Positions 30,541 through 32,722 of a stretch of DNA of 45,995 bases are shown piece by piece. Numbering within the stretch: the stretch's first letter is position 1; each line of letters opens with the position of its first letter. Origin of the DNA: Candidatus Peribacteria bacterium (GTDB lineage Bacteria > Patescibacteriota > Gracilibacteria > Peribacterales > Peribacteraceae); contig JAQBQQ010000040.1 in the NCBI GenBank assembly GCA_028286915.1, positions 1 through 45,995 of the forward strand, in the 5' to 3' direction. The notes below the pieces were generated by a model. The model was not told where the DNA came from, did no database searches, and was given only the letters and a program-made list of their open reading frames with translations. A program made the translations under genes and the position numbers.

Positions 30541-30582
30541 AAAAAAAGCCCTGTCGATATCCGAAGATATGACAGGGCTGAA
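30541..30582 (-). terminator. Intrinsic terminator of the small gene at 30627-30950
   Basis: On the minus strand AGCCCTGTCATATC, loop TTCG, GATATCGACAGGGCT, T7, with one bulged base. It lies in the 95-base gap between two convergent genes. Confidence 0.88.
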
Positions 30583-30626
30583 ATGGCTGCAGATACAGCC
30601 GACTATTCCTGAAGAGCAGTGAAGGC

Positions 30627-30950
30627 CTAACGACAAGCCCGATGGGAATGAAATCGCATTTCAGACATTGAGACTGTTGCCAGAACAACGTCCGACGGAA
30701 CCGCTTTGCCCTCCTTTTCCACGGAGCCACGAAGCTGGCCGTCTTCGAAAAGGAAAACCTGACGCTTCCATGCACTGACGCCTGGGTACCAGGCCGGCAG
30801 GGTCATAGTCACCGGATGACTCTTCCGCCGGTAAGTCCTAAGCCAGCGCCTGTCAAGCCAGGAGCACATCCTACGTTCCAGTACAATGGCCGCATTTTCA
30901 TAGATGATGACTTGAAGCTTGCGACGCGGATCCAGGCTGATCTGGGGCAT
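30627..30950 (-). CDS. Small orphan protein, 107 aa (island gene E)
   Basis: Unknown family. A basic protein with several Trp and Arg (MCSWLDRRWLRTYRRKSH) followed by a beta-like stretch (WKRQVFLFEDGQLRGSVEKEG) and a basic end. The ATG at 30950 has GGAGGT five bases upstream; the frame extends further but without ribosome site. The leader contains a nested hairpin at 30991-31023 and a CCCTT/AAGGG hairpin with T-rich tail at 31051-31079, so premature termination could control it. A strong terminator follows. It is the last of four small minus-strand genes between uvrD and rsmA. Confidence 0.6.
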   Translation of the reverse strand: MPQISLDPRRKLQVIIYENAAIVLERRMCSWLDRRWLRTYRRKSHPVTMTLPAWYPGVSAWKRQVFLFEDGQLRGSVEKEGKAVPSDVVLATVSMSEMRFHSHRACR

Positions 30951-30990
30951 GTGAACCTCCCGGTAAAGTGTGAGCCTTGCTACTCTTGCA

Positions 30991-31023
30991 GGGCAGGCTG
31001 CAGACATTATCTGCAATCTGCCC
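30991..31023 (-). promoter_or_regulatory. Nested hairpin in the leader of the 30627-30950 gene
   Basis: GGGCAG and CTGCCC close a stem that continues, after a symmetric three-base internal loop, with GCAGA/TCTGC. It lies 41 bases upstream of the ATG. Confidence 0.5.
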
Positions 31024-31050
31024 CGAAAGTTACGATGGAAAAGAACAATG

Positions 31051-31079
31051 AAACAAAACACCCTTCTGTGTGGGAAGGG
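31051..31079 (-). terminator. Possible attenuator upstream of the 30627-30950 gene
   Basis: On the minus strand CCCTT, nine-base loop, AAGGG, then TGTTTTGTTT. The stem is short, so efficiency is doubtful. The rest of 31080-31245 shows no gene. Confidence 0.35.
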
Positions 31080-31245
31080 CTTATAATTCTCGTGACTATC
31101 ACATTTCTAAGCTCTTCCCATGGCAAGACCTACCTTACGAATGGACTTCGTGAGGCAAAGGGCGAGGCCGAGGTGAAGAGATAACATTTGCATCTGCGCA
31201 AAACATACTCCTCCGGGGTTTTTTCCGTCAACGGAATTTTATACG

Positions 31246-31282
31246 CAAAAAAGCCAGCCCTTCGCGAGTGCGAAGAGCCGGC
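31246..31282 (-). terminator. Intrinsic terminator of the small gene at 31305-31628
   Basis: Thirteen-pair stem GCCGGCTCTTCGC / GCGAAGGGCTGGC (two G-U pairs), four-base loop, T6 on the minus strand. Confidence 0.9.
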
Positions 31283-31304
31283 AGGAGTAGTGGTTCACAG
31301 GTGC

Positions 31305-31628
31305 TCATGCACCAATGGCAACGCGAATCTGATCAAATGCTGCCAAAATCGCAGGCACCGAAGGATCAGACAGCAGTGCATCCCGAAGCACGATTTTCGC
31401 TCCTGTCGGATCACTGAATGAACCGTAAGAGGTATGCCAGGGCAGTTTACGCCGTTCTGAAGATGGAATTCCGGGCATCCGGCAACGAATGGCGACTGAC
31501 AGGCCGCTGTTAAACAGAATCCGCTGTGCCACTGCATCCGGGTTCCCGCCCTCGCGCATTTCTTCACGAATGACTTGTGCGGGACTCTTGCTGTCAGGGG
31601 AAGTAACATCTTCGGCTTGTTCGCACAT
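31305..31628 (-). CDS. Small orphan protein, 107 aa (island gene F)
   Basis: Unknown family. The sequence suggests a mostly helical soluble protein (SPAQVIREEMREGGNPDAVAQRIL, then VLRDALLSDPSVPAILAAFDQIRVAI) with a basic centre (RCRMPGIPSSERRKLPWHTSYG). The ATG at 31628 has AGGAG eight bases before it and is preferred to the in-frame ATG at 31664. A TATAGT lies about 35 bases upstream of the start on the minus strand. A 13-pair terminator follows the stop. The length equals that of the next small gene (30627-30950), but the two proteins show no visible similarity. Confidence 0.6.
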   Translation of the reverse strand: MCEQAEDVTSPDSKSPAQVIREEMREGGNPDAVAQRILFNSGLSVAIRCRMPGIPSSERRKLPWHTSYGSFSDPTGAKIVLRDALLSDPSVPAILAAFDQIRVAIGA

Positions 31629-31714
31629 GGTGCTGCTCCTGTTGAACCACTCGCACGTTTGCACCCACTATAGGCACAGAAGACGAGCGGCGCAGTAATA
31701 GAAAAGAACAAAGA

Positions 31715-31761
31715 CCCCGGTCATCAGCATCCTCTCCGAAGAGAGAAAATGATGACCGGGG
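31715..31761 (-). terminator. Long terminator hairpin of the small gene at 31771-32130
   Basis: CCCCGGTCATCA (31715-31726) pairs perfectly with TGATGACCGGGG (31750-31761); an inner CTCTC-TTCG-GAGAG hairpin caps it; on the minus strand a T-rich tail follows. Confidence 0.85.
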
Positions 31762-31770
31762 AACGGGTTA

Positions 31771-32130
31771 CTACCGCACGAAAGTCTCAAAAGGCCTCTT
31801 GCGAAGGTGCTCCTGACGCGGCTGGCCTGCTGAGCCAACCGCGGCCAGCAAACGATCCAGGCGGTGCTCGAATGTTCCCTGGGGGCCGGAGCCGAGTTCA
31901 GTCCATCTGCTCAAAAAAGCAGCTTGGGACAAGTTAGCGGCACCAAACTGCGTCTTGAAGGAGCTGATGAGACTGGCGATGGTCTCATTGTCGGGATGCC
32001 GATTCCGATGAGAAAACAACGTCGCAATCTTGGAACGAATCGTCTCATTTCCGCTGGCCATGGTGCATATCCGGTAGTAGTAGCCACCCGAATCCGTCCC
32101 CCACTGTGAGAAACGGAAGCCGAGCGGCAT
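31771..32130 (-). CDS. Small orphan protein, 119 or 96 aa (island gene G)
   Basis: Unknown family. The C-terminal 96 residues (MASGNETIRSKIATLFSHRN, then TIASLISSFKTQFGAANLSQ, AAFLSRWTELGSG, HRLDRLLAAVGSAGQ) look helical and soluble and could be the whole protein if the ATG at 32061 is used; the first ATG is at 32130. Neither has a Shine-Dalgarno sequence. No promoter is evident between it and the previous small gene. It may therefore be read through the hairpin at 32154-32177 as the second gene of an operon. Its own stop is followed by a very strong hairpin terminator. Confidence 0.5.
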   Translation of the reverse strand: MPLGFRFSQWGTDSGGYYYRICTMASGNETIRSKIATLFSHRNRHPDNETIASLISSFKTQFGAANLSQAAFLSRWTELGSGPQGTFEHRLDRLLAAVGSAGQPRQEHLRKRPFETFVR

Positions 32131-32153
32131 TATGGTGTAAAAGAACAGAAGTT

Positions 32154-32177
32154 AGCCGGGGAAATGCATCCCCGGCT
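32154..32177 (-). terminator. Hairpin between the small genes at 32182 and 31771
   Basis: AGCCGGGG / CCCCGGCT eight-pair perfect stem with an eight-base loop; on the minus strand an interrupted T-rich tail (AACTTCTGTTCTTTT) follows. It may be a full terminator or an intercistronic attenuator. Confidence 0.7.
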
Positions 32178-32181
32178 GAAA

Positions 32182-32388
32182 TTAATTCACAGATACATCT
32201 GTCGATTCATCGACAATACCAGGAACAAGTTCTGCTATGTTTGCCTGTACTTCAGCTTGCTGTTTAGCTGCCTCAGCTTTCACAGCCTCAGCTGCAGCAA
32301 TTTTTGCTTTTGCCTCAGGCGATAAACCATGGTTAGCAATTTCTACAGCAGACATTCCGATGTCTGCCATGGTAAGGGTATGTGCCAT
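32182..32388 (-). CDS. Small Ala/Glu-rich orphan protein, 68 aa (island gene H)
   Basis: The frame from the ATG at 32388 reads MAHTLTMADIGMSAVEIAN, then an Ala/Lys/Glu helix (EAKAKIAAAEAVKAEAAKQQ) likely to form a coiled coil, and an acidic end. Unknown function. The upstream frame from 32439 is excluded because it runs into leader sequence; the start has a C-rich stretch before it and no Shine-Dalgarno. It is the first gene of the minus-strand island and has a consensus promoter 180 bases upstream with a folded leader in between. It could be a small structural or signalling protein; nothing decides this. Confidence 0.55.
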   Translation of the reverse strand: MAHTLTMADIGMSAVEIANHGLSPEAKAKIAAAEAVKAEAAKQQAEVQANIAELVPGIVDESTDVSVN

Positions 32389-32422
32389 AATGATAGGGGG
32401 TAAAAATAAGAAGAAATAAAGT

Positions 32423-32521
32423 CCCTTAGCGGAAATCACCCTCCGCCTGTACTTGGGGAAGGTAGATGACGTAAGAGATCGGATTAACTCAGACGCATCG
32501 GTGCCTTCCCCTTGCTAAAGG
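32423..32521 (-). ncRNA. Branched leader RNA upstream of the small gene at 32182-32388
   Basis: On the minus strand a closing stem CCTTTA (32516-32521) with TAAGGG (32423-32428) encloses two arms. The first is GGGGAAGG (32504-32511) with CCTTCCCC (32455-32462), continued inside by GATGCGT/ACGTCATC and GAG/CTC. The second is GCGGA/TCCGC (32429-32446). The position between a consensus promoter and the gene, and the three-way shape, are riboswitch-like. No known riboswitch signature is recognised. Confidence 0.45.
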
Positions 32522-32569
32522 AGAACCAGTAGGCGCCGAAACAAAAATTCTGAGAAACCATGTGCGGTG

Positions 32570-32597
32570 AGTGTACTGCTGGAGAAGGACGTGTCAA
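32570..32597 (-). promoter_or_regulatory. Promoter of the small-gene island
   Basis: On the minus strand TTGACA (32592-32597), 16 bases, TACACT (32570-32575). The predicted start is near 32563, giving a leader of about 175 bases to the first small gene. Confidence 0.7.
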
Positions 32598-32627
32598 GAA
32601 AAAGTGAGTGACGATGGGTGCACGTGG

Positions 32628-32722
32628 TACAGGAGAAGCAGGGAACAAACGAAACAAGGCTTACTTTCTTTTCCCCTGTACCGCCTGTACCCCTTGCATC
32701 TCCTGTACCCCTCGTCAATACT
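32628..32722. repeat. CCTGTACC / GGTACAGG word array upstream of rsmA
   Basis: GGTACAGGAG and GCAGGG words are followed by CCCCTGTACCGCCTGTACC, CTCCTGTACCCC, giving complementary halves that could fold. The array directly abuts the rsmA start. Confidence 0.55.

Follow-up and report, generated by a model that had tools for sequence, protein, structure and literature searches.

What controls a run of four small genes whose products match no recognised protein family? The question is raised by the interval between uvrD and rsmA in a genome of Candidatus Peribacteria, within the candidate phyla radiation (CPR). This genome measures 1.43 Mb, is rated 100% complete and is the only member of its genus among those compared. 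We analysed a 45,995 nt stretch of it (contig JAQBQQ010000040.1), hereafter the window. A first-pass annotation had marked four short open reading frames (ORFs; g1 to g4), a hairpin 3' of each, and a promoter at 32570-32597, all on the minus strand. Each of these elements is present as placed. Our analysis indicates that the g1 and g4 units are probably governed by amino-acid-specific, ribosome-mediated transcription attenuators, within an orphan gene cluster at a conserved uvrD–rsmA site. The direct basis is sequence, geometry, leader homology, biosynthetic linkage in relatives and depletion of the cognate amino acid. From these we infer that in the cell ribosomes stall, the leader hairpins terminate and polymerase reads through, and that the small proteins have a role in starvation. 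Unless stated otherwise, features of the window described below lie on the minus strand.

Leader peptides upstream of g1 and g4

The g1 leader region (32561-32433) follows the promoter at 32570-32597. This has the form TTGACA-16-TACACT, with 10/12 matches, and its layout is the same in relatives. The leader ATG begins 8 nt past the -10 element. Hence, the leader ORF is probably leaderless. It occupies 32484-32561 and encodes MVSQNFCFGAYWFSFSKGKAPMRLS, in which Phe, Tyr and Trp codons cluster at residues 6-15; leaders of relatives have a similar pattern. Two structures can form downstream of these codons. Arm A, GGGGAAGG (32504-32511), is in the 3' part of the ORF and, according to folding and to pair counts in relatives, can pair with arm B, CCTTCCCC (32455-32462), as an antiterminator. 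Alternatively, arm B pairs with arm C, the downstream GG(C)GGAGGGTG, to make a terminator hairpin (32437-32464; fold of the terminator half -16.6 kcal/mol). Sharing arm B, the A:B and B:C pairings are mutually exclusive. In the fold of the whole leader, the terminator is present and arm A pairs instead with an upstream segment 1, UUCUCCUU. Arm C may also form a hairpin with a segment D (C:D; GGCGGAGG/TTTCCGCT). Across 16 aligned leaders, 89.7% of antiterminator cells are paired and three pairs have changed on both sides, which is covariation. Judged by its sequence, the g1 leader has the layout of a classical ribosome-mediated attenuator. The branched leader noted in the first-pass annotation is present, but its attenuator nature had been missed.

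Homology searches identified the same element. A DNA profile made from the g1 upstream region alone already matched the equivalent region in relatives, where the matches proved to be short ORFs dense in Phe, Tyr and Trp. A covariance model built from relatives, with the window held out (R3), matched the g1 leader with 81 bits (E 3.7e-20). The window's genome has one strong copy only.

The spacer between g3 and g4 contains a second leader. Its promoter, TTGACG-18-TATGTT (31202-31231), ends 8 nt before a leader ATG, the same geometry as at g1. The ORF (31107-31193) encodes the leucine leader peptide MQMLSLHLGLALCLTKSIRKVGLAMGRA. A 13-bp antiterminator (31071-31120) pairs UGGGAAGAGCUUA (31120-31108) with UAAGCCCUUCCCA (31083-31071). 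The attenuator terminator (31060-31080; z -2.1) comprises GCCCTTCCCACACAGAAGGGT and GTTTTGTTTC, pairing CCCUUC with GAAGGG ahead of the U run UGUUUUGUUUC. Both structures use the 5' arm of the terminator and so are mutually exclusive. For an independent assessment, a model (R2) was built from ten Leu leaders outside the window and run unfiltered on both strands of the whole window. The first match was the g4 leader (31193-31051; E 0.0021) and the second was the g1 leader. In the whole genome the g4 leader was again first (E 0.066). We conclude that the g4 leader is likely to be a leucine attenuator, weaker than that of g1 and independently supported. Both leader peptides, the second promoter (31231-31202) and the attenuator terminator of the g3–g4 spacer (31080-31060) had been overlooked.

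Briefly, the g1 leader would work as follows. RNA polymerase would start close to the short ORF, which is probably leaderless and dense in Phe, Tyr and Trp codons. Were charged aromatic tRNAs scarce, the ribosome would stall early and leave arm A free to pair with arm B. This would block the B:C terminator and polymerase would continue into g1. Were aromatic tRNAs plentiful, the ribosome would reach the stop codon and cover arm A, B:C would form and transcription would tend to end. The g4 leader is predicted to follow an identical design with leucine sensed. The expected output is production of g1 at aromatic shortage and of g4 at leucine shortage. The earlier proposal of independent regulation or read-through control is thus right in kind for g1, where a leader peptide would control the leader terminator, and probably right for g4. 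No attenuator was detected for g2 and g3.

Leader families and their target genes in relatives

The aromatic leader model matches 52/74 family genomes, whose leaders are homologous to the g1 leader peptide. The Leu-leader model matches 57/74, an upper figure because some of its weaker matches are aromatic leaders. Location is also conserved. Divergent placement upstream of rsmA, typically ~50 nt away, was found for 39/44 aromatic leaders compared; the g1 leader is in the same divergent place, 165 nt from rsmA. No Rfam family scored above its gathering threshold, either in the window or at five loci bearing strong leaders. One aromatic leader of a relative (L040a) has an extra hairpin within the terminator.

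Genes 3' of the relatives' leaders include those for prephenate dehydratase, DAHP synthase, LeuA and amino-acid kinases. These biosynthetic genes link the leaders to the amino acids that they encode. For example, Pfam identified prephenate dehydratase and DAHP synthase after the Phe/Tyr/Trp-rich leaders MSVQTFTFGFFSFPFSAGQEPMCLN and MTHSGIFFGAYWYPFSAGKVLLRLS of relatives, respectively; the gene behind the g1 leader is an orphan. LeuA (HMGL-like and HCS_D2 domains, Pfam) lies behind one relative's Leu leader, and several other Leu leaders precede proteins assigned as LeuA by reading, without a Pfam scan.

Small orphan proteins of ~60-150 aa are found behind leaders more often than enzymes. Among 51 Leu leaders, the next protein has at most 160 aa in 34 cases and at least 250 aa in 11; the mix behind aromatic leaders is similar. 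An array away from rsmA in one relative (G069, contig C4; L169:9639-11417) has an aromatic leader, a Leu-rich leader (MQQRGLLLGLSLLLLLTAEGRLAA) and an Ile-rich leader (MHLSIINQSIIIIPRTA) in succession, each preceding a small orphan gene. Overall, the leader-linked small proteins form a few small families and many singletons. Many of the Leu-linked proteins encoded by the first gene after the leader have a motif resembling GRYGPDER..MR..GI.V (L199, L201, L204, L232, L179 and L169). These probably constitute a conserved family, sometimes with leuA directly after. Another family has nine members of ~103-131 aa, mostly behind leaders of type MAQRQSYFYGFFFTPYLAGKEPYDLK (L098:1163-1640 and single loci in L099, L100, L102, L103, L107, L110, L111 and L114).

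Biosynthetic enzymes required when an amino acid runs short contain little of it themselves, a phenomenon termed low cognate bias (PMC4209129). The leader-linked small proteins behave likewise for Leu and, less strongly, for Phe, Tyr and Trp; the difference is that the bias was described for biosynthetic enzymes and is seen here in orphan small proteins. Leu content is 5.2% in Leu-linked small proteins and 10.2% in aromatic-linked ones (p 1e-8). Phe, Tyr and Trp together make up 4.3% of aromatic-linked small proteins and 6.4% of Leu-linked ones (p 8e-4). Both p values are optimistic because proteins within a family are not independent, and the effect runs both ways. Consistent with this, the 68 aa g1 protein contains no Phe, Tyr or Trp (0/68; P = 0.003 at 8.3% expected). 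This depletion independently points to synthesis of these proteins while the sensed amino acid is scarce.

Leaders of other composition were also observed. Pro-rich leaders, MNLLPQTPAITPTPPIARDGAVFEI and MILQTLQPAPFTPPRAGRCVAA, occur on the reverse strand at L183:4417-5369 (G082) and L135:2296-2421 (G046). Preceding amino-acid kinase genes that resemble glutamate 5-kinase, they are probable proline attenuators. At L177:7432-9221 (G055), the reverse strand carries a TTGACA promoter and a short ORF rich in Lys and Thr, MQSSQPTKMLKTKKTSLHRKGGC. The gene after it encodes an amino-acid kinase with weak ACT-domain matches, like aspartokinase. This ORF is a possible Lys/Thr attenuator.

Is the uvrD–rsmA site itself conserved? 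RsmA of the window is 60% identical to that of a relative labelled Candidatus Peribacteria. The order of uvrD and rsmA-comEC is kept in 17/17 relatives with both genes on the examined stretch, and the interval between uvrD and rsmA measures 1.9-6.4 kb. Many of these intervals contain genes oriented opposite to rsmA, and many include aromatic amino-acid synthesis enzymes, amino-acid kinases and small unknown proteins. From the sequences compared, the site in Candidatus Peribacteria is a conserved position of variable content, which in the window holds a small orphan-gene cluster.

The orphan genes and their spacers

The genes themselves are g1 (32182-32388; 68 aa), g2 (31771-32061; 96 aa), g3 (31305-31628; 107 aa) and g4 (30627-30950; 107 aa). 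AGGAG and GGGAGGT ribosome-binding sites precede g3 and g4, respectively. An alternative 119 aa form of g2 would begin at the ATG at 32130; the shorter form has a start aligned with that of g3. Codon scores are highest for the named frame in all four ORFs, although in g2 it ties with one reverse frame. Codon usage of the four genes is atypical and supports the named frames weakly.

The four proteins had been called unrecognised, and this was borne out. None has a Pfam or NCBIfam match above cut-off. PHROGs and PADLOC searches gave nothing convincing, and neither did a PDB sequence search with g2, g3 and g4. The one notable weak match is of g2 to the PADLOC restriction-enzyme profile REase_II (E 0.0013, 16 bits). 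An AlphaFold model of g4 alone is uninformative (mean predicted local distance difference test score 40). No homologue was found for g3 among 40 genomes of the class, or for g2 and g4 among 74 family genomes. No homologues of g2, g3 or g4 turned up in viral contigs, nor any of g4 among phages or the named genome collection. A tblastn search of ~1.2 Mb of relatives' loci with g1 to g4 found nothing convincing; g1 was compared with these loci only. In BLAST comparisons, the four proteins show no similarity to the leader-linked small proteins of relatives.

Hence, the idea that the set moves as a unit did not hold: g2 to g4 have no homologues in the other genomes searched, g1 has none in the loci compared, and what is conserved is the leader and the position between uvrD and rsmA. 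Frames conserved in no relative had been named in advance as counting against the genes. Formally, this describes the coding sequences of g2 to g4; conservation lies in the regulatory DNA instead.

Each gene is followed by a stable hairpin. The terminators of g1 (32154-32177), g2 (31715-31761), g3 (31253-31282) and g4 (30541-30582, facing the uvrD end) have z values of -4.9, -5.5, -4.7 and -5.6, and 0-1 of 300 dinucleotide shuffles were equally stable. The T-rich tails reported for all four are strong 3' of g3 and g4 but modest 3' of g1 and g2. Between 28 and 36 kb of the window there are 13 terminator-like sites, compared with 8.9 +/- 2.9 in shuffles; this number is unremarkable alone. Integron cassettes were considered and rejected: attC core motifs (RYYYAAC/GTTRRRY) are few and scattered, and none recurs at gene borders.

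The 5' untranslated regions (5'UTRs) of g2 and g3 are homologous (Smith-Waterman score 59; maximum in 500 shuffles 33). Each contains a two-part hairpin (32083-32128 and 31646-31691, respectively), and they fold alike, with a hairpin just ahead of the start codon. The coding sequences that follow are unrelated. This homology argues for the g2 start at 32061, giving 96 aa. The spacer motif TGTTCTTTT...GCCGCTCG recurs at g2 and g3 only, with one poor match elsewhere in the genome. Homology of the g4 5'UTR to these regions was not significant. Analysis of the window found neither an attenuator nor a clear promoter for g2 and g3. With their duplicated, structured 5'UTR, they would probably be transcribed by read-through from g1 or from an unrecognised promoter.

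The DNA separating the g1 promoter from the rsmA start contains, at 32620-32710, GGTACAGG-type units repeated imperfectly in direct and inverted orientation. These repeats caused chance microRNA matches in the Rfam scan.

Alternative explanations and biological meaning

Several observations weigh against attenuation of functional g1 and g4 genes. The g1 leader terminator is followed by a poor U tract, GAUUUCC, in place of the UUUUU or UUUAUUU of relatives. Hence, termination in this leader may be leaky. The g4 leader scores 19 bits, compared with 53-123 for accepted Leu leaders. Together, the U tract and the low score suggest that one or both leaders may be decaying. The g4 protein is not depleted in leucine (9/107). 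Codon scores of all four ORFs are near 0, which is marginal relative to the 0.27 +/- 0.14 of real genes here, and no homologue was found for any of them that would prove selection at the protein level. Attenuation does not explain g2 and g3. Finally, searches of this genome gave no match to the DAHP synthase or HMGL/LeuA families. The usual target pathways are thus missing, and g1 and g4 cannot be working for them in the usual manner. KARI (PF07991) was considered as a marker of branched-chain synthesis; its matches were mostly weak and partial, and it was not used. Few amino-acid biosynthesis genes were reported in five complete Peribacteria genomes (PMC4736985). Either the g1 and g4 proteins have another role in starvation or the leaders are being lost.

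If the latter applies, the attenuators would be relics: ancestral aro and leu genes behind them would have disappeared, and the leaders and short ORFs would be decaying leftovers that do little. The missing enzyme families in a genome rated 100% complete, the poor g1 U tract, the weak g4 leader, the marginal coding scores and the lack of homologues of g2, g3 and g4 in relatives all fit this account. However, the leader frame, promoter and antiterminator are intact at g1 and at g4 alike, and g1 is free of aromatic residues (P 0.003). Moreover, relatives that keep the pathways also have small orphan genes behind most of their leaders, which makes such genes the usual state and not a remnant. We therefore regard decay into relics as rather unlikely, if far from negligible. 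An alternative that dispenses with regulation, in which the four orphan genes are unrelated, their terminators are ordinary and the structured leader regulates nothing, draws on the facts that hairpin terminators after single genes are common, that the number of terminator-like sites is unremarkable and that the genes lack homologues. It is highly improbable, given that the g1 leader is homologous as peptide, as RNA and in position to leaders in 52 genomes, and that the two best window matches of the hold-out Leu model are exactly the g4 and g1 leaders. We attach very little probability indeed to a toxin-antitoxin, defence or mobile-cassette (integron-like) island. Tandem small orphan genes with intervening hairpins, the cassette-like duplication suggested by the g2 and g3 5'UTRs and the weak REase_II match of g2 (E 0.0013, 16 bits) would suit an island, but Pfam, NCBIfam, PHROGs and PADLOC identify no credible toxin, antitoxin or phage family, and relatives were absent from phages (searched with g4) and viral contigs (searched with g2 to g4).

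The mechanism that we favour for g1 and g4, amino-acid-specific attenuation, has clear precedents. Escherichia coli trp, pheA and leu are classical leader-peptide attenuators. The leaders of actinobacterial trp, trpS, leuS and ilvB also belong to this class (PMC1262725). In common with these, the Peribacteria leaders have a short ORF dense in regulatory codons, an antiterminator and a terminator that exclude each other and, in relatives, linkage to cognate biosynthetic genes. They differ in matching no Rfam family and in an ORF that starts ~8 nt past the -10 element without a Shine-Dalgarno site. Their targets are mostly small orphan proteins; for the key enzymes tested, the window's genome gave no match. 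The actinobacterial LEU element is likewise an RNA element upstream of leuA, but it is a conserved pseudoknot (PMC1262725), whereas the Peribacteria element takes the form of a Leu-rich leader peptide followed by a terminator. In the open-access literature we found no paper that treats leader-peptide attenuation in CPR, Patescibacteria or candidate phyla, nor any account of gene control responding to amino acids in Peribacteria or other CPR bacteria. The locus had been proposed, with partial justification, as an undescribed system. Ribosome-mediated attenuation itself is known; the leader families are absent from Rfam and from any paper found on Peribacteria or CPR, and it is unusual that they are linked to orphan small proteins in which the sensed amino acid is depleted.

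What might such cassettes do? Tentatively, we suggest that Peribacteria attenuator cassettes, which by leader composition are aromatic, Leu and probably Ile and Pro, mainly drive not enzymes but small proteins that evolve fast and make little use of the amino acid in short supply. They would then be a starvation-induced response that persists, as in the window, after pathway loss, a proposal that we hold to be quite possible, though short of probable. The two conserved leader families are comparative evidence for sensing of single amino acids by ribosome stalling in reduced cells. They also offer a way into the study of dozens of small orphan proteins, since each leader labels which shortage should induce the protein behind it.

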